From Candidatus Brocadia sapporoensis (GTDB lineage: Bacteria > Planctomycetota > Brocadiia > Brocadiales > Brocadiaceae): DNA of 64,000 nt. Positions within the stretch are counted from its first letter, which is position 1. Every line of letters starts with the position of its first letter. Under the pieces are notes generated by a model. It was not told the DNA's origin, did not search any database, and saw nothing but the letters and a program-made list of their open reading frames with translations. The position numbers were made by a program, and so were the translations under genes. Positions 19,645 through 28,148 of the stretch are shown piece after piece. The stretch is from positions 1-64,000 of the forward strand of contig NZ_MJUW02000122.1 of the NCBI RefSeq assembly GCF_001753675.2. Direction: 5' to 3'.

Positions 19645-20690
19645 CTAAGCCAGCAAATTCAAGGGGACAAACAAAAAGGTCGGCACTACAGCCCGATCTG
19701 TCCTGATGCATAAAGCTTGGGCAGCGGTTGTCCGGGAAGCGATAACCCCCTTATGCCAAAAGGAGGGAAACACCTTTTCTGTCTGTGTATAGTGGCTCAT
19801 GACAATGTGGCGGCCATCCGTGGTTGGTAAATGAACATCAATCATTTGAATATTCGACATTTTTTCCAAAATGGCTTCGGATATCAGCCCTGCGGCTCGC
19901 CTACGCACAAGATTTCGCAACATGGTGTGGAGACAAAAAGCCAAAAGGGAGACCAAAATATGGGCTTCCATTCTCCATTCCAATTGTTGCCAGAGGGGGC
20001 GGATGGGAAGCGATCCCTTCAAATCCTTAAACGCCTGCTCACTGCGTGTCAAAAGTAGATACGATTTCCAGACGGTTTTAGGCGAAGCGGCCTGCATGTT
20101 GGAACGAAGCCGATAGCGTCCCTCACGCCGTAACGTTCGCCGCAGGCGTTCACGATCCAGGCTGAAATGGAACGTATTCCCATTGACCGGTTCCTGCGGA
20201 TTGGGAGGGGGTAACAATTTAGTTTTTTGAAAAATTCTCTATATGAATAACCTTGTCTCGTAGGGGCAGGTTTGAAACCTGTTCCTACCTGCAGGTAATA
20301 CGTTGTTTTTGTTGAAATATTTTCACGCGGATATTCTCCCGCGTCTGCATTCAGGTCTCTTCGAGCAACGGTTTTTCAACACGCGTCAAGTGTCCCTTCG
20401 GGGTGCTTACCAAATAATCAATCCCTCGTTCACGCATCTTTTCCAAGGTATCCTCCGTTGGAATACCGGGATCCATGAGCCAGGTGCGCCGGAATTTCCC
20501 ATACCGCTTTTCGATCCAATCCAGAAACTCCTCCAATGTTGCCGTGCCTCTTGTATTCCCGGGATATACTTCATAGGCCGCGGAAAATCCTTCCGACGTC
20601 AACACCAACGCTACTCTACCACCTGCACGCAATCCGAACGTTTGTCACAACCGTATCCCAACTGTTTTTTACCTCCCGATCCAGCCGATG
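19645..20690 (-). pseudogene. IS1634-like transposase remnant, interrupted
   Basis: Three pieces of one DDE transposase are readable on the minus strand. Near 20690-20635 there is LGYGCDKRSDCVQVV; after a frameshift 20632-20351 continues ALVLTSEGFSAAYEVYPGNT and WLMDPGIPTEDTLEKM, typical of IS1634. A TGA then interrupts, but the same frame goes on with RENIRVKIFQQK to about 20300. A family A repeat occupies 20211-20300, replacing about 60 expected residues. The C-terminal part (20217-19645) contains FHFSLDRERLRRTLRREG, LLLTRSEQAFKDLKG and RMEAHILVSLLAFCL. The N-terminal part is lost. It is clearly non-functional. Confidence 0.8.
20211..20300. repeat. Element A, copy 4, inside the transposase remnant
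   Basis: It starts with GTAACAATTTAGTTTTTTGA and contains the same central palindrome as copy 1 (GTAGGGGCAGGTTTGAAACC). The left boundary falls exactly where recognisable transposase coding sequence stops. The right end is not well defined, and may be truncated. Confidence 0.55.
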
Positions 20691-20887: not shown

Positions 20888-22063
20888 TTACAATATCCCA
20901 AAACATGAACGCAGCGTTTCTGAGGCTTGACGAATTATATGTAATTTTTGCAGGATAATTTCTTTTGTGTTAACCGGCCGATCGGCAAACGTACCAAAAC
21001 CACAATCCGGATTCAGGTAGATTTGTTTAGGATGACGGTGCTTTATGAGCGATTTAACGTTATTCACGACAAAGTCAACCGTTTCCACTCTGGTCGTGCG
21101 TGGGTCAACAACGCCCAGTCCGATCTCTTTGTCCGGAAGCAAATCAGCAAGCGCATCAATGCTTCCAGCCCTCTCTGTGGCACACTCCAGCACGAATTGA
21201 TGAATATCCATCCGGTTGAAATAGGGAATCAGAGGACTATAGGCGCCCCGGAGCAAGACGTCTTCCCGCTGACTCCAGTTGCCCCGGCAAACATGCAGAG
21301 CCGTCTTCATCTTCCCGCTAATACCTTCTACAACCCGGTTTAGCAGGTCAGCGGCAAAATCCAATTCCTCTTCAGGACTGCTTTTTTCTGACAATGCCGC
21401 ACACATAAAGGTGTGTGTGTCATGAGGTCCTGTAAAAGCCACCTCGGCAAGCACCGGCTCATCGAACTGAATAAACGTGCAACCTGCTTTACACAACGCC
21501 ATAAGTTCTTCCCGGAGAATATCGACGACATCATTTCCTAAAGATACTTTGTCAGGATAAAAATTATAAGACAGGCTTTTTACCCACATAGAACGGGTCA
21601 GGAGATACGGCCCCGGCAGGGTTGTTTTGATGGGCTTATTGGTATGCTGCCTCAAAAACAAATAATCGTTAAGAACTAATGGGTGCTTCCGCTTCAACTT
21701 GCCGGTCACTACCGGATTTTTCAAAGCAAAGGCCGGTACATCCAGGGCATTGAGCAGTCGTTCGAAGGTAGCCTTATCTTCTACATAATTGAGCATTTCC
21801 GTCAGGGACATCAATTGAATGCCATCAATATGCCCTGCGACAAAGGAGTAAAAATTGTCACGGCGCTGCTCGCCATCCGTCACGATATCGACACCTGCTT
21901 CTTCCTGTAGTCTGAGCGCCTCCAGCGTTGCATCACCGACAATTGAATCAAATTCTTTGTCCCCGATCAGACCTTTTTGTCTTCTGCCCAAGGCTTTGAT
22001 AACCGCCTTTGATCGCGGCAAACTACCAACCATAGTAACAGGAAATAATGGAATGTTTAGCAT
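20888..22063 (-). CDS. Core MetE-type (B12-independent-like) methionine synthase
   Basis: A 391-residue protein equivalent to the C-terminal catalytic half of MetE; the N-terminal half is absent. Zinc-site motifs are present: FIQFDEPVLAEVAF (Glu), TALHVCRGNW (His and Cys) and YLNPDCGFGTF (second Cys). The start PVTMVGSLPRSKAVIKAL and GVDIVTDGEQRRDNFYSF are family hallmarks. Stand-alone core MetE proteins are known to make methionine from homocysteine using a methyl donor other than the polyglutamyl folate, in some cases a corrinoid protein; the donor here is unknown. Last gene of a tight operon behind TusA-like, DsrE and TusA-OsmC genes (12-base gap), suggesting coupling to sulfur delivery. 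Confidence 0.88.
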   Translation of the reverse strand: MLNIPLFPVTMVGSLPRSKAVIKALGRRQKGLIGDKEFDSIVGDATLEALRLQEEAGVDIVTDGEQRRDNFYSFVAGHIDGIQLMSLTEMLNYVEDKATFERLLNALDVPAFALKNPVVTGKLKRKHPLVLNDYLFLRQHTNKPIKTTLPGPYLLTRSMWVKSLSYNFYPDKVSLGNDVVDILREELMALCKAGCTFIQFDEPVLAEVAFTGPHDTHTFMCAALSEKSSPEEELDFAADLLNRVVEGISGKMKTALHVCRGNWSQREDVLLRGAYSPLIPYFNRMDIHQFVLECATERAGSIDALADLLPDKEIGLGVVDPRTTRVETVDFVVNNVKSLIKHRHPKQIYLNPDCGFGTFADRPVNTKEIILQKLHIIRQASETLRSCFGIL

Positions 22064-22075
22064 AAGAAAAAGATC

Positions 22076-22816
22076 TTAGACAACTCTCAAATCAACATGT
22101 ACTCCAACCTGGCGGATTAATGTGCTGGTAACAGGTGAGGCAGCTATTGTTTCCTGCAAGATTTGACTTAAAACTTCCTCGTCCGCATCGGATTTGACGT
22201 AAATCGTACCTGTTATCTCTTTCAAACCGCTGTGTCCATTCTGTTCGATACCGAGAAAAACGAAGATGTTATCGATCTGTCCACTTAGAGAAATTTCCAG
22301 TTCATCAACCCTGATATTTTGTCGGGATGCACGAATCTGGAAGCCCATCACCAAGCAGGCTCCGAGAGCGCTTAAGATATACTCAACGGCGCTAGGGGCT
22401 TCATCTTTGACATCAAAACTGGCAGGTTGGCCAACTGCCCAGGAATGGTTGCGACAGAAGACTTTTACCTGCATTCCACCATTCCAGTGAATGCGTGTCT
22501 GCCAGCGGTAGTTACGGGCTTTCTCGTAATCTTCTTCCGCCTTTTTATCATTGTCGCCTTTCCTGATAAAATATTTATAATGTTCGGTACCCGGCTGGCA
22601 GCCAAGATACGGATTTTTCGTCATCCGACACCAGGCAGGCAGGTCTTCCTTAACACTAACCTCCGTACTGCGGATTTCCAAAATCTGGCCATCCGGCACC
22701 TGATGTATTGCCTTGCGAATGAGCAAAAGCAAACCCGAACCACAGTCAAGGTTGCCGCCTTCACAGACATGTGATGTTTCAATGTTGTCTGATAAACGAA
22801 AATCACTTGGTAACAT
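22076..22816 (-). CDS. TusA-like/OsmC fusion protein
   Basis: A 246-residue two-domain protein. Residues about 15-80 are TusA/SirA-like: GGNLDCGSGLLLLIRKAI carries the Cys position normally found as CPxP, and DLPAWCRMTKNPYLG is the second family motif. Residues about 105-246 are an OsmC domain with VKVFCRNHSWAVGQPASFD and ILSALGACLVMGFQI, which supply the two redox Cys of the OsmC/Ohr fold, plus ASPVTSTLIRQVGVHVDLRV at the end. OsmC proteins reduce peroxides or handle persulfides; the fusion to a sulfur-carrier domain favours persulfide chemistry. Six bases from DsrE and 12 from core MetE. Confidence 0.88.
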   Translation of the reverse strand: MLPSDFRLSDNIETSHVCEGGNLDCGSGLLLLIRKAIHQVPDGQILEIRSTEVSVKEDLPAWCRMTKNPYLGCQPGTEHYKYFIRKGDNDKKAEEDYEKARNYRWQTRIHWNGGMQVKVFCRNHSWAVGQPASFDVKDEAPSAVEYILSALGACLVMGFQIRASRQNIRVDELEISLSGQIDNIFVFLGIEQNGHSGLKEITGTIYVKSDADEEVLSQILQETIAASPVTSTLIRQVGVHVDLRVV

Positions 22817-22822
22817 TTTGGA

Positions 22823-23182
22823 TTAATATGTAATACATGAGCCTCCGGTAGTTAAAAATTCAACCACTTTTGCCCCACCAACAATCGTTGCCCCTTTCAC
22901 AAGATTATTCATATCCAATCCCCGTTTCTTAAAACAGGGAGAACAGACCCAAATTTTTCCCTCTGCTTCCACAAAATCAGCCATGAGCTGTTTGAGAGGA
23001 GCAAACCCTTCTTCATGGACATCATCCGCATAGCCATTTGAGGAGAGACGCACGCCTTCCGTAGTCAGAAACACAACCGTTTCAACACCGGATGCGGCTG
23101 AAGCATTTGCGACCACAAAACCGACAGTTGCGTTGTCGGAATTATCTTTCGCATGAGTGATACTAACCATAAATTTTGCCAT
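22823..23182 (-). CDS. DsrE/DsrF-family protein
   Basis: About 119 residues from ATG at 23182, whose first base is the last base of the preceding TAA stop (TAATG), so translation is coupled. It has the DsrE fold signature: FMVSITHAKDNSDNATVGFV, VETVVFLTTEGVRL, and a WVCSPCFKKRGL motif with two Cys, either of which could carry a persulfide; it ends in TTGGSCITY. DsrE-like proteins pass sulfane sulfur to TusA-like carriers; the neighbours on both sides contain TusA-like domains, so a relay is likely. Cytosolic. Confidence 0.87.
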   Translation of the reverse strand: MAKFMVSITHAKDNSDNATVGFVVANASAASGVETVVFLTTEGVRLSSNGYADDVHEEGFAPLKQLMADFVEAEGKIWVCSPCFKKRGLDMNNLVKGATIVGGAKVVEFLTTGGSCITY

Positions 23183-23445
23183 TATGTGCAACCTCCTTTC
23201 TTGATGTAATAATACTCATTGTTTTCACCACAGGGACCAGCAAGAAATACATGCCCCCTCATCCTGCACCAGGACGGAATGTCAGCTTGCGCTCCCGAAT
23301 CAAGGGAACGCACCTTCATTACCTGGCCGTCTTTCAGTAATTTTAACGCCTTCATCAGTGCAATAATTAAATCACCACACCCCATCTCCCCTAAATCAAT
23401 TTCGGCATCAGGCAGAATATTTTTTTGATCATTCGTTTCAGACAT
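23182..23445 (-). CDS. TusA-like sulfur-carrier protein
   Basis: About 87 residues. IDLGEMGCGDLIIALMKAL aligns with the TusA CPxP helix but the residue after the Cys is Gly, not Pro, and DIPSWCRMRGHVFLAG is the second family motif. The ATG at 23445 is chosen; a TTG three codons upstream is also possible. The ribosome site is weak. Its stop overlaps the DsrE start by one base. It likely carries a Cys persulfide between DsrE and the TusA-OsmC fusion. The close match between its C-terminal half and the first domain of the fusion suggests duplication. Confidence 0.83.
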   Translation of the reverse strand: MSETNDQKNILPDAEIDLGEMGCGDLIIALMKALKLLKDGQVMKVRSLDSGAQADIPSWCRMRGHVFLAGPCGENNEYYYIKKGGCT

Positions 23446-23502: not shown

Positions 23503-23820
23503 TTATCTGCTAAGTATCCTGAGACCAGCCACACCTATGAGAATAAATATAATGCAACAAATACGACCCCAGTCACGTGGCTCGTGAAAGAGAAATATCC
23601 CTGCTAGTACTGTTCCAACACTGCCGATACCCGTCCATATCGCATAAGAAGTACCGACTGGAAGGCTGCGCACTGCGATGCCTAAGAGCACAAAACTTAT
23701 TATCATGGCAAATGAAGTTACCACGGACGGAAAAAACTGTGTAAAACCCTTCGAATATTTGAGCCCAACGGCCCATACTACTTCAAAGACACCTGCTGTA
23801 ATTAGAATAATCCAACTCAT
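23503..23820 (-). CDS. sugE: SMR-family exporter, Gdx/SugE type
   Basis: A 105-residue inner-membrane protein with four predicted TM helices. TM1 contains the essential Glu in GVFEVVWAVGLKYSKGF, the pattern of the guanidinium exporter (Gdx/SugE) branch; TM3 has YAIWTGIGSVGTVLAG. The N-terminus MSWIILITAG is typical. SMR exporters swap protons for guanidinium or quaternary ammonium ions. It is 57 bases upstream of the TusA-like gene and could head the same transcript, but the functional connection is unclear. I did not recognise a guanidine riboswitch in the sequence upstream. Confidence 0.92.
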   Translation of the reverse strand: MSWIILITAGVFEVVWAVGLKYSKGFTQFFPSVVTSFAMIISFVLLGIAVRSLPVGTSYAIWTGIGSVGTVLAGIFLFHEPRDWGRICCIIFILIGVAGLRILSR

Positions 23821-24277: not shown

Positions 24278-25336
24278 TTAGCTCAATGAAGATAAAATAG
24301 AAGGGGTGATTTTATTCAGTGGGACGATCGCATCAACTGCTCCCAATTTGATTGCTTCCTTGGGCATGCCAAATACCACGCAACTTTCCTCATCCTGTGC
24401 CAGCGTTGTAGCGCCTGCTTCTTTCATTTTTAAGAGACCGCTTGCGCCATCATTACCCATGCCTGTCATGATTACACCAACGGCATTGACGCCTGCGTAT
24501 TTTGCGACCGATTCAAATAATACTTCGGCGGATGGTCTGTGACGGCAAACCGGAGGCCCCTGATGTGTTGTTACGAAATACCTGGCGCCGTTTCTTCGCA
24601 ATTCCATGTGATAATTTCCGGGTGCAATCAGGGCCAGTCCGGGAATAATACTGTCTCCATCTCTGGCTTCTCTCACTTCAAGAGAACAAAGAGAATTTAA
24701 ACGGTTAGCAAATGATTTTGTAAATGACTGTGGCATGTGTTGTACAATCAGTATTCCCGGTGCATTCGGTGGCATTTGCATTAATACCTCTTTGAGCGCC
24801 TCCGTTCCTCCCGTAGAGGCCCCAATGGCGACGATCTTGTGCGTACTATTGATCAATGCATGGCTTCTTTGTGTGTTTCTGGCTATAGTATTTTTAGTAT
24901 CAGTATTTTTAAAATATTCCTTTTTTTTAACTTTAACACCTGCTGATTCTTTTATTTTTTCTGCTAATTCGGTTACTATCTCGTTCAGGGTGTGGGATAC
25001 ATCCAGTGAAGGTTTTGCGACAAAATCCAGTGCACCAACTTCGAGTGCCTTTAGTGTGGTTTCACAGCCCGACTGTGTCAGGGAACTGACCATGATGACA
25101 GGTAGAGGATAGTATGTCATTAATCTTTGCAGGAAGGCGATGCCATCCATCCTGGGCATTTCCACATCAAGGGTAATTACATCGGGTTTTAAATTTATAA
25201 TTTTGTCTCTGGCAATAAATGGGTCTGCTGCTGTTCCTACGACTTCGATCCCTTGATCTTTACTCAGTCCGGCAGACAAAATTTTTCTGACAACGGCAGA
25301 GTCATCCACAATTAACACCTTTATTTTTTTTCCCAA
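24278..25336 (-). CDS. cheB: Chemotaxis methylesterase/glutaminase CheB
   Basis: A 352-residue two-domain protein: an N-terminal receiver (KVLIVDDSAVVRKIL, phosphoacceptor Asp in ITLDVEMPRMDG, Lys in VAKPS) and a C-terminal methylesterase with the Ser in AIGASTGGTEAL, the His in IVQHMPQSFTKSF and the Asp in MTGMGNDGASGL. CheB removes methyl groups from receptor glutamates and deamidates glutamines, which resets receptor sensitivity. The start is a TTG, set by an almost perfect AAGGAGGTG four bases before it. It is the last gene of the chemotaxis locus, 93 bases after CheR. Confidence 0.97.
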   Translation of the reverse strand: MGKKIKVLIVDDSAVVRKILSAGLSKDQGIEVVGTAADPFIARDKIINLKPDVITLDVEMPRMDGIAFLQRLMTYYPLPVIMVSSLTQSGCETTLKALEVGALDFVAKPSLDVSHTLNEIVTELAEKIKESAGVKVKKKEYFKNTDTKNTIARNTQRSHALINSTHKIVAIGASTGGTEALKEVLMQMPPNAPGILIVQHMPQSFTKSFANRLNSLCSLEVREARDGDSIIPGLALIAPGNYHMELRRNGARYFVTTHQGPPVCRHRPSAEVLFESVAKYAGVNAVGVIMTGMGNDGASGLLKMKEAGATTLAQDEESCVVFGMPKEAIKLGAVDAIVPLNKITPSILSSLS

Positions 25337-25429
25337 ATTACACCTCCTTCTCGCGTATATCTCCGATCCGGAGATATACGGAACTATAAAGATACAAAGG
25401 ACACGAAGAAGTCAAATTGTCACAATGGC

Positions 25430-26263
25430 TCACTTCTGATAAATTGTTGGTTGTATGTACCGGAATTTGCTGTCTGTACCGGTAAGGCTTTCGGAATGAC
25501 CGATGAAAAGATATCCATCAGGGGCAAGATGTTTATAAAATTTTGATACCAGATTACTCTGGGTTTGTTTATTAAAATAAATCATTACGTTTCTGCAAAA
25601 TATGAAATCAAATTGTCCTTTAAAAGGAAAGGCTTCATCGGTAAGATTAAGCCTTCTGAATACGACCATGTTTCTCACGAAATCTTTTATTTGATAATAA
25701 TCTTTGAAATTATATATTACCTTTTCGAAATAGCTATTTTGCATTTGAATAGGGATTGCCCTTAACCGGTCTTTTGCGTATATCCCCTGCACAGCCTTTT
25801 TTAAAACCCGGGTCGATAAATCGGTAGCCAATATTTTTACATCCCATTCTCCAATTCGTTCCATAAATTCCGCCAGTATCATAGAAATGGTATAAGGCTC
25901 CTCACCCGTGGAGCATCCCGCGCACCATACCCTGATTTTTTTTTCATGGTGTCCCTTTTTTGTTGCTAATAAGACAGGAAGTACTTTTTTCGAAAGGAAT
26001 TCAAAATGCGCCGGTTCCCGAAAAAATTCTGTCAGGTTCGTAGAGATGCAATCAAGCATGCTGATCAGCTCTTCGCCCGTGGTATCTACTTCGGTAACAT
26101 ATTGATAATATTCCTTAAATGAGGTCAGTGATCTTTCCCGTAAACGTTTCATTAAGCGGGATTTCAACAGCTCTTTTTTGGCTGAGGTAAGACTTATTCC
26201 GCTTTCGTTATAGATTAAGCGCTGAAAAAGATAAAATTCCTTATCCTTGATATCAATATCCAT
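25430..26263 (-). CDS. cheR: Chemotaxis protein methyltransferase CheR
   Basis: AdoMet-dependent methylation of chemoreceptor glutamates. The ATG at 26263 has AAAGGAAA eight bases upstream and gives a normal 277-residue CheR: the helical N-terminal domain FQRLIYNESGISLTSAKKEL, SRLMKRLRERSLTSF, then TNLTEFFREPAHFEFL, the AdoMet loop VWCAGCSTGEEPYTISMIL and FDFIFCRNVMIYF. The frame remains open for another 77 residues to 26494; this extension (KISDTDRKNSETRICVDFG and more) is not part of CheR. Possibly it encodes part of a fused or decayed small domain. Confidence 0.95.
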   Translation of the reverse strand: MDIDIKDKEFYLFQRLIYNESGISLTSAKKELLKSRLMKRLRERSLTSFKEYYQYVTEVDTTGEELISMLDCISTNLTEFFREPAHFEFLSKKVLPVLLATKKGHHEKKIRVWCAGCSTGEEPYTISMILAEFMERIGEWDVKILATDLSTRVLKKAVQGIYAKDRLRAIPIQMQNSYFEKVIYNFKDYYQIKDFVRNMVVFRRLNLTDEAFPFKGQFDFIFCRNVMIYFNKQTQSNLVSKFYKHLAPDGYLFIGHSESLTGTDSKFRYIQPTIYQK

Positions 26264-26645
26264 GGGTTGTTTCCTTTGAGGATTTTCAATTATATAATCT
26301 AATAATATTCCTATTTCTGTTGACTTATTAAGAAGGTCTATTCGAGTTTGTTCATTTAGATATTCACAGTAAAAACCAAAATCAACGCATATCCGCGTTT
26401 CGCTGTTTTTCCTATCTGTATCAGATATCTTAATTATAAAAGATGCTGGGCACTGACTATTTTTATATTCTTCGGCAATGTTTGTATAGAACAAACGTGA
26501 CGACCTTCTGGTTTCGCTTGTCAGCGAAAAAAGTTCATCTCCGGGAAAATTCTTTGTCAGGCGGTAAATCTTTCATTGCCAAACAAAATATTTCTCTGTA
26601 GGCAAACAAATCCTTAAAATTATTACTTAGTAATGTATCCACTGC

Positions 26646-27038
26646 CTATTGTCTACTGCCTACTGTATCTTCCTGTTTCTTCGCAAATATATTTTTTATT
26701 GCCGCTACCATACGGTCGTCTTCAAACGGTTTTACTACATAATCTGCTGCACCATGTCGAAGGGATTCCACTAACGAGTCTCGCTGATCAATGGCGGAAA
26801 TCATGACTACCTTTGCCTGTTTATCGAACGCAATGATCTCTTTGAGCCCCTGAATTCCATCCACTTCTGGCATTACAATATCCATAGTTACTGCATCGGG
26901 TCTTAATTCCTTATACTTTTCTAATGCCTCTCTGCCATTGCCTGCTTCTCCCGCGATCTCAAATCCATTTCGTGTCAAAATCTGTCGGATTATCATTCTT
27001 ATGACTTTTGCGTCATCCACCACTAATATCTTTTTCAT
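26646..27038 (-). CDS. cheY: Response regulator CheY
   Basis: A 130-residue single receiver domain: ILVVDDAKVIRMIIRQIL with the acidic pair, phosphoacceptor Asp in AVTMDIVMPEVDG, the switch Ser in VVMISAIDQ and Lys in DYVVKPFEDD. In chemotaxis CheY-P carries the signal from CheA to the motor. It overlaps the stop of cheC by four bases (27035-27038), so the regulator and its likely phosphatase are translationally coupled. Confidence 0.94.
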   Translation of the reverse strand: MKKILVVDDAKVIRMIIRQILTRNGFEIAGEAGNGREALEKYKELRPDAVTMDIVMPEVDGIQGLKEIIAFDKQAKVVMISAIDQRDSLVESLRHGAADYVVKPFEDDRMVAAIKNIFAKKQEDTVGSRQ

Positions 27039-27640
27039 GTTTTTACTCCTATAGAATCTAACAATTTTACGAACGAATTCATTTCAGGAACTAAAAATAG
27101 ATAACATTCAAGTTCAGTACCACTAATTTCAAATATCGTTTCTATCAGCAAAAGCTTATCATCGATCATGCCTTGTTCTAGTACGAGGTTTGTAAATATA
27201 ACCCCTGCATAATCATTATGTACTTGTGGTGGCTGTGGAATTAACTGTGCATTAAAATCCGAGACTAATGCATTGCTGATGTGACTAGCAAGAATGTTTC
27301 CTAGCTCCTGTATCGCACTTTCAGTAAAAACATCGCATTCTTTTGAAGTTCCTATGCGTTGCCGAAGAAACAGATCCGTGAGAATTAATGATCCTTCCAG
27401 TGGTAACATAAATAAAAGCTTGCAGCCTTCATTTCCCTTAAAATTAACCATCACGCTTATCATTTCTCTTTGATCTTCATTCATCTTCTCGGTAGTCTCA
27501 CCAAAATCCGCAATGGATATTTTTGAAAGAGAAATTCTTGCGCCTGTCCTTAGAGATTTGGATAATGCTCTGGAAGCACGATCAATACTGAGGCTTGACA
27601 TGATCTCCAATATCTTTAGACGATCTTGAGTAATGTTCAT
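27035..27640 (-). CDS. cheC: CheC-family CheY-P phosphatase
   Basis: A 201-residue protein. Motif TESAIQELGNILASHISNAL contains the phosphatase signature ExxN, followed by a Pro-rich stretch IPQPPQV at the expected spacing. The hydrophobic strands GCKLLFMLPLEGSLIL and LLIETIFEISGTELECYLFLV are typical of the CheC/CheX fold. A second ExxN motif is not evident, so it may have one active site rather than two. It lies between cheD and cheY; CheC and CheD often form a complex. Activity on the adjacent CheY is inferred. Confidence 0.85.
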   Translation of the reverse strand: MNITQDRLKILEIMSSLSIDRASRALSKSLRTGARISLSKISIADFGETTEKMNEDQREMISVMVNFKGNEGCKLLFMLPLEGSLILTDLFLRQRIGTSKECDVFTESAIQELGNILASHISNALVSDFNAQLIPQPPQVHNDYAGVIFTNLVLEQGMIDDKLLLIETIFEISGTELECYLFLVPEMNSFVKLLDSIGVKT

Positions 27641-27668
27641 CTTTTACCTCTCCCATTCTATTTAATTT

Positions 27669-28148
27669 TTAATAGACTATGACTGATTCGCCAAATACGC
27701 GGCATGTCACATCCCCGGTTTCTGTATCAAACAAAATATTGTATCCTTTTACACCGCCAGTCCTCGACGCTGCTATCCTGATACCTTCTTTTTTCAATAT
27801 CTGTCGCACCTCTAATTCATTTGATTCTCCTATATTAAACAGGCCATTGGTTTCAAACATCTTTGCACCCCCAAAGATCTTTGCATAAAGAGATCCTCTG
27901 GATGCACCCGTATGCGTAACCATTTGATAAATAAAATAGGGCAGTCCAGTATTGGCATATTTAGTTATCTTTAAATCATTACCGCTTTTCCTGGGCAACA
28001 TAACATGCAAGAGCCCGCCGATTTTATTGATGGGGTCGTGTAATACTACGCCAATACAGGAACCTAATAATGTCTTTAATACATGTGGTGCTTGTGTAAT
28101 CTTTAAATCGCCGACGCCAACGGTAATCATACGCTCAGTATTATCCAC
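27669..28148 (-). CDS. cheD: Chemoreceptor glutamine deamidase CheD
   Basis: A 159-residue protein starting with GTG (AAAGGAATTTTCAG upstream). Catalytic Cys in TLLGSCIGVVLHD and His in GGLLHVMLPRKSG are visible; RGSLYAKIFGGAKMF and GGVKGYNILFDTETG complete the family pattern. CheD deamidates receptor glutamines and binds CheC. The gene order D-C-Y is the arrangement expected for an adaptation module using the CheC/CheD/CheY-P loop. Confidence 0.95.
   Translation of the reverse strand: MDNTERMITVGVGDLKITQAPHVLKTLLGSCIGVVLHDPINKIGGLLHVMLPRKSGNDLKITKYANTGLPYFIYQMVTHTGASRGSLYAKIFGGAKMFETNGLFNIGESNELEVRQILKKEGIRIAASRTGGVKGYNILFDTETGDVTCRVFGESVIVY

Follow-up and report, generated by a model that had tools for sequence, protein, structure and literature searches.

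A conserved TusA, DsrE, TusA-OsmC and core MetE operon in Candidatus Brocadia sapporoensis and other bacteria, possibly an undescribed system for selenium salvage

Organization of the locus

The window analysed here is a stretch of 64,000 nucleotides from Candidatus Brocadia sapporoensis (contig NZ_MJUW02000122.1 of assembly GCF_001753675.2, positions 1 to 64,000). Our subject is an operon of four minus-strand genes within it, which encode a TusA-like carrier, a DsrE-like sulfurtransferase, a second TusA domain fused to OsmC, and a core MetE-like zinc methyltransferase (Table 1). The genes are tightly packed: tusA and dsrE share the A of TAATG, and gaps of only 6 bases (dsrE to fusion) and 12 bases (fusion to metE) separate the others. 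A first-pass annotation, made from the letters of the window, had described this packing and the replacement of Cys-Pro by Cys-Gly in both TusA domains; the open reading frames (ORFs) and Pfam domains bear out the former, and the latter holds in all relatives compared (82 of 82 TusA and 86 of 86 fusion sequences). A scan for promoters and terminators gave no signal above shuffles.

Table 1. Features of the operon and its surroundings in the window
Feature	Position	Strand	Length	Evidence and remarks
tusA-like carrier	23182..23445	-	87 aa	PF01206 37.3 bits, E 2.5e-9; M-G-C23-G motif
dsrE-like sulfurtransferase	22823..23182	-	119 aa	ATG at 23182; PF02635 60.9 bits, E 1.7e-16
TusA-OsmC fusion	22076..22816	-	246 aa	PF01206 and PF02566; TusA at about residues 17-87, OsmC at about 105-245
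core MetE-like zinc methyltransferase	20888..22063	-	391 aa	PF01717 E 1.4e-33
SMR-family transporter gene	23503..23820	-		PF00893 98 bits; 57 bases upstream of tusA
transposase-like reading frames, fragmented	19645-20632			downstream of metE; apparently a decayed insertion element
chemotaxis-type block	24278-28148			upstream; CheB-like, CheR-like, CheY-like and CheD-like ORFs; apparently unrelated

Conservation and distribution of the four-gene unit

We searched the GTDB species genomes with a profile of the fusion protein, which returned 165 relatives, and the best 80 of them were read. Of these 80 loci, 71 contain all four genes, 69 preserve both their order and their strand, and 45 have no gap above 150 bases; the exceptions to the full layout are mostly at contig ends. 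The carriers belong to at least 10 phyla, including Poribacteria, Planctomycetota, Chloroflexota, Acidobacteriota, Methylomirabilota, Nitrospinota, Pseudomonadota, Armatimonadota, Actinomycetota and Bacillota, and aerobes are among them. This conservation is far beyond chance, and the operon is a real conserved functional unit; the cross-phylum survey rejects the idea of a Brocadia-only oddity. The first-pass annotation had suggested looking for the gene order in other anaerobes, a scope too narrow for the hosts, because Bacillaceae and Paracoccus also carry the operon.

In the tree of the fusion protein, Brocadia groups with Poribacteria and Chloroflexota, apart from the other Planctomycetota, which suggests that Brocadia gained the operon horizontally. 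The pairwise divergences of MetE and the fusion are strongly correlated (r = 0.96), indicating that both genes travel together. Recognisable copies of the operon exist in five more Brocadia genomes, with MetE on another contig in G008 and a broken copy in G003. Besides, MetE is reduced to scraps of 26-33 residues in G001 and G010, and none was found in G004, G006 and G007. No relative of the operon matched among phages, and the plasmid search found a relative of the whole cluster in Paracoccus only. None of the operon protein sequences examined is a selenocysteine-encoded (Sec, UGA) form; the in-frame TGA flags at these proteins look like local alignments overrunning a normal stop.

As for neighbours, the SMR gene has the same position in the Brocadia loci L036, L037, L038 and L039, and was not seen upstream of the operon in other lineages by our flank survey, which relied on simple ORF calling; it is uncertain whether the transporter is part of the system. 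A secreted transglutaminase-like gene (PF01841) occurs in 17 loci (e.g. L071:886-1992, L083:1742-2854, L082:5707-6945 and L070:1204-2283). In Acidobacteriota, Planctomycetota and NC10 its usual place is directly upstream of tusA; once it lies between the fusion gene and metE, and the Paracoccus cluster has a distant relative of it.

Cysteines of the carrier proteins

Both TusA domains score above the PF01206 cut-off, and the model of the fusion matches the TusA fold of 3lvj; the Cys-Pro-x-Pro motif of TusA is absent, and the NCBIfam TusA equivalog model stays below cut-off. In the stand-alone carrier, C23-G24 is accompanied by a second cysteine, Cys60, in 81 of 82 relatives. The TusA domain of the fusion has the motif L-D-C25-G-S-G, with C25 and C63 kept in 86 of 86, and DsrE keeps Cys80 and Cys83 (C-S-P-C) in all 84 sequences. 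At position 73 the fusion of the window has a cysteine, where the commonest residue in relatives is Trp.

The model of the fusion (pLDDT, the predicted local distance difference test, 85.5) was matched by Foldseek to OsmC structures (2opl, 1lql) as well as to TusA. The OsmC domain contains a single cysteine, C154, which is kept in 80 of 86 relatives, and the position of the resolving cysteine is occupied by Ser227 in 85 of 86, so the two catalytic cysteines of the family are not found. As the resolving cysteine is missing and C154 is dispensable, the domain is unlikely, from its residues, to be an ordinary hydroperoxide reductase. A separate OsmC gene with two cysteines follows metE in many Bacilli (L096:9918-10370, L100:9906-10346, L119:9926-10366) and matches the NCBIfam OsmC (seleno)protein model below cut-off. 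An AhpD-type gene follows metE in two loci of the Gallionella/Nitrospinales group.

The core MetE-like protein

All residues that bind zinc (H257, C259, E293 and C354) and all homocysteine contacts (S14, E65 and D201), with roles taken from PMC7857596, are invariant in 77 of 77 sequences. Therefore core MetE should, judging from these residues, activate homocysteine or a close analogue. The protein has no N-terminal folate-binding domain (PF08267 below cut-off). Compared with MetE 1T7L and MesD 3RPD, it has two family-specific insertions (about 84-114 and 206-235), and the second holds an F-M-C221 motif whose cysteine is also invariant (77 of 77). The AlphaFold model (pLDDT 88; predicted template modelling score, pTM, 0.90) has its best PDB matches in 1t7l and 3rpd. 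Both insertions are among its lowest-confidence parts, which fits, as far as a model can tell, with loops that may dock a partner. Unusually, the MetE of the window has a cysteine at position 294, beside the zinc ligand E293; in 75 of 77 relatives this residue is Tyr.

The family is remote from known synthases. MesD 3RPD is the best PDB profile match, and the identity to solved MetE and MesD structures is about 20-23% (22-23% to MesD 3RPD in the fold alignment). The NCBIfam core-synthase models remain far below cut-off, e.g. PRK09121 with 117 of 392 bits. The MetE sequences of the operon cluster in a single clade with a support of 0.96. Other PF01717 proteins encoded in these genomes stand outside it and reach no more than 34% identity; one in-family second copy (L169, 48%) lies inside this clade.

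A carrier fused to the synthase in Paracoccus

The strongest functional evidence comes from the megaplasmid clusters of Paracoccus, where Paracoccus ferrooxidans pFER4 and P. versutus have the order tusA, dsrE, genes for proteins of 168 aa and 522 aa, TusA::MetE, selA and trxB. TusA::MetE is a single gene of 493 aa that retains the Cys221 motif. Compared with the window, DsrE is 66% identical, the TusA part 56% (against the TusA domain of the fusion) and the MetE part 42%. This natural fusion argues, at the level of gene structure, for a direct partnership between the second TusA and MetE. No OsmC is present in the locus, indicating that OsmC is dispensable. The SelA of this cluster scores 565 bits against a cut-off of 268. 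A SufS-type cysteine desulfurase gene is divergent to the Paracoccus cluster, and a cysteine desulfurase gene directly follows metE in L086, so neighbouring desulfurases are a plausible source of persulfide for the operon.

The protein pair of the Paracoccus cluster consists of a hydrophobic member of about 170-200 aa with a conserved CLAP motif and a member of about 470-520 aa whose N-terminus is signal-like, and it is found beside the operon in distant lineages. It links the clusters of Paracoccus (L195:6826-8910), Gallionella (L069:1805-5976), Nitrospinota/Nitrospinales metagenome-assembled genomes (L073:9943-11908 and L077:9805-13877) and Paenibacillus (L103:3944-6077), sometimes together with a DsbC-like protein. 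Where the pair was scanned, NCBIfam gave no match, and Pfam gave none for the copies of Gallionella and Paenibacillus.

Selenium genes beside the operon

In Bacillota, the LysR gene beside tusA belongs to the selenium metabolism-associated NCBIfam family NF040786 (LysR_Se): all 10 proteins tested, drawn from nine loci, score above its cut-off of 250. Among 18 Bacillota loci, 13 have this gene no further than about 200 bases from tusA. Paenibacillus thalictri (L103) has a run of LysR_Se, the operon, a second LysR_Se, a gene of unknown function, selB, selA and tRNA-Sec. The operon is therefore adjoined by selA in Paracoccus, by selB, selA and tRNA-Sec in P. thalictri, and by LysR_Se in nine Bacillota loci.

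Among 21 carriers spread over many phyla, 19 have a SelD above cut-off, the genome of the window included, and the published background is 38.3% of bacteria (PMC5322559). Most of these SelD genes have an in-frame TGA, and SelD is probably itself a selenoprotein in these carriers. Locus L119 of Bacillus methanolicus DE0196 (G117) keeps the operon and LysR_Se in a genome with no SelD above cut-off, so this LysR_Se subfamily may act on a target that does not depend on selenophosphate.

Methionine synthesis in the carriers

A MetH-type homocysteine domain is found in 21 of 24 carriers, in 15 of them within ORFs longer than 1,100 aa. The Brocadia genomes searched contain no MetH homocysteine domain (PF02574), and PF01717 appears in Brocadia only where the operon or its remains occur. 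Brocadia G001, G004, G006, G007 and G010, which are 92-99% complete, have neither a PF02574 nor a PF01717 match. These operon-less Brocadia must therefore use an unrecognised methionine synthase. A weak PF01717 match in G019 was rejected as MesB because it overlaps an aminotransferase-like ORF. Given MetH in most carriers and the operon-less Brocadia, a housekeeping role of the operon in methionine synthesis is less likely, and the idea that it is the sole methionine synthase of its hosts is weakened.

Proposed relay and alternative explanations

The reading we prefer, with a probability of roughly 0.38, is that the operon encodes a chalcogen (sulfur or selenium) relay ending at a homocysteine-binding zinc methyltransferase, which would preferably run from methyl-selenium to methionine and selenide. 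The first TusA and DsrE, with its CSPC motif, would hand an atom at the persulfide or perselenide level over to the second TusA domain. This domain would dock on core MetE and bring its cargo to the zinc site for methyl exchange with homocysteine. In the preferred direction, a carrier-bound methyl-selenium or methyl-sulfur would donate its methyl group to homocysteine to give methionine, and the freed selenide or sulfide would go back via TusA and DsrE. In this way methyl-selenium would be salvaged for making selenocysteine without the help of a corrinoid. Since selenolate leaves more readily than thiolate, selenium is more plausible than sulfur as the cargo. The evidence for the relay is comparative throughout, and the structure models are of single chains. 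It consists of the conserved unit, the intact catalytic residues, the fusion of the second carrier to MetE, and the neighbouring selA, selB, tRNA-Sec and LysR_Se; from these we infer selenium rather than sulfur as the cargo, a methyl-chalcogen as the donor and the direction of transfer. It is rather unlikely that the whole chain holds as corrinoid-free demethylation of methyl-selenium or methyl-sulfur, in aerobes too, with the methyl group going to homocysteine on core MetE and selenide passing via TusA and DsrE to SelD or SelA.

Several points weigh against the relay. The main chemical doubt is how an unactivated selenoether, a demanding donor, could give up its methyl group if no corrinoid takes part. 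In one Bacillota family, SelD is present in 47 of 49 carriers and in 134 of 145 non-carriers (Fisher p = 0.52), a comparison subject to a ceiling effect, as SelD is near-universal there (181 of 194 genomes). There is no enrichment of SelD within this family, and two of its carriers, both drafts and one of them B. methanolicus DE0196, have no SelD above cut-off. Sec genes were seen adjoining the operon only in P. thalictri and Paracoccus; in three Bacillaceae, selD and selA are located elsewhere. The co-occurrence with SelD, being equally common in carriers and non-carriers of the family, is thus suggestive, and the gene-neighbour links are the solid part of the selenium case.

A serious if doubtful competitor is that the operon encodes a fifth family among the folate-independent methionine synthases, without any particular connection to selenium. 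TusA, OsmC and DsrE would then supply or activate the methyl donor, a role proposed for MesX with MesD (PMC7857596). The invariant zinc and homocysteine residues, the lack of a folate domain, MesD as the best profile match and the fusion of a carrier to the synthase all suit it, and so does Brocadia, which has neither MetH nor another PF01717 protein. The frequent MetH-type domain of carriers, full-length in 15, counts against it, though MesD also stands alongside MetH in 75% of genomes (PMC7857596). Also against it are the operon-less Brocadia at 99% completeness, which must make methionine otherwise, and the selA, trxB, selB and LysR_Se neighbours and the two-carrier sulfur relay, all of which it leaves unexplained. 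With the same anatomy, the operon might detoxify sulfide or selenide, MetE methylating carrier-bound persulfide or selenide from an unknown donor or reversed methionine and releasing methanethiol or methylselenol. We consider this improbable: the relay and the cysteine desulfurase neighbours could supply persulfide and a selenium-type LysR control would suit selenium stress, but MetE-type chemistry runs to a thioether product, no donor-binding domain is present, and selA would have no reason to lie within the operon.

The first-pass annotation had proposed that persulfide sulfur is handed toward homocysteine or methionine synthesis, with the MetE-like protein as sulfur acceptor or builder of homocysteine-level thiols. 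TusA and DsrE are indeed sulfur-transfer families, the invariant extra Cys221 of MetE could take persulfide, and cysteine desulfurase genes adjoin the operon in two lineages. However, MetE chemistry methylates a homocysteine that already holds its sulfur, and MetB, MetY or HcyS-type genes were not seen in the flanks examined, which makes this quite improbable. What survives of the proposal is the conserved unit, the cooperation of carrier and MetE seen in the Paracoccus fusion, and a plausible persulfide supply; its housekeeping side suffers from MetH in 21 of 24 carriers. Protection from peroxides, also put forward in that annotation, would need the OsmC domain to act as a thiol peroxidase guarding thiol chemistry. 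Foldseek confirms the OsmC fold, and the two-Cys OsmC gene of Bacilli and the AhpD-type gene would be fitting neighbours, but with Ser for the resolving cysteine in 85 of 86, Cys154 lost in 6 of 86 and no OsmC in the Paracoccus cluster we hold it highly improbable, and a peroxidase was rejected on cysteine content.

Comparison with known systems

Like MesD with its partner MesX, and like MesA, MesB and MesC (PMC7857596), the operon combines a folate-domain-free MetE fold with conserved zinc and homocysteine residues and a dedicated partner alongside. It differs in the two insertions with Cys221, in a sulfur-carrier relay instead of DUF1852 as the partner, and in its occurrence in both aerobes and anaerobes. 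Close homologues of MesD share about 55-72% identity (PMC7857596), a level which operon MetE does not reach, and the occurrence in anaerobic Brocadia would argue against an O2 requirement as in MesD. Membership in MesB, which is marked by at least about 29% identity together with CoFeSP and the Wood-Ljungdahl pathway, is unlikely in view of the aerobic Bacillaceae and Paracoccus carriers. Canonical MetE shares the C-terminal zinc domain (His, Cys, Glu, Cys), whereas the N-terminal folate domain belongs to canonical MetE only. The flanks examined contain SMR, transglutaminase, OsmC, AhpD-type, LysR, SelA and other genes, but neither MesX nor a corrinoid protein was seen adjoining the operon; MesX (PF08908) was not searched genome-wide.

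On the carrier side, YedF also joins TusA and DsrE, with a DsrE CxxC and a selenium linkage, and it tracks SelD (PMC5322559). YedF is one protein with CPxP and CGxC, whereas the operon has separate genes with CG and CSPC, a second TusA, OsmC and MetE, and the E. coli-type YedF model is far below cut-off on the operon proteins. The TusABCD relay of tRNA 2-thiolation likewise uses TusA and DsrE-type proteins, but the operon has no TusB, TusC, TusE or MnmA and ends at a MetE-like enzyme. Ohr/OsmC thiol peroxidases share the OsmC fold, which in the operon is fused to TusA and has a single dispensable cysteine. The type I mlp clusters (PMC10418091) and SdmABC (PMC11097638) are, like the operon, methyltransferase clusters linked to selenium, and they act on methyl-chalcogens. 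They use a corrinoid protein, and mlp is confined to anaerobes, in which these corrinoid methyl-selenide clusters track the Sec trait (PMC10418091); the operon has no corrinoid protein adjoining, and its carriers are TusA and DsrE. As a precedent, tusA/tusD go up jointly with the SdmABC methyl-selenide methyltransferases when Methanococcus maripaludis is depleted of selenium (PMC11097638); HrsM, the regulator in this organism, is the archaeal LysR_Se (PMC11097638, PMC5322559).

In conclusion, no description of a TusA/DsrE/OsmC/MetE operon was found in the open papers searched, and this is possibly an undescribed system for selenium salvage. Where a four-gene order persists over at least 10 phyla and a carrier is fused to its enzyme, a real pathway is usually behind it, and the operon connects a zinc homocysteine methyltransferase with chalcogen carriers and the selenium regulon. 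It opens testable questions about the methyl donors of folate-free methionine synthases and about how aerobes recover selenium from methylated or organic forms. Besides, it offers candidate genes for the poorly understood delivery of selenide to SelD. If corrinoid-free demethylation is true, the operon would represent both a new route of selenium acquisition and a new methyl donor for methionine synthesis.

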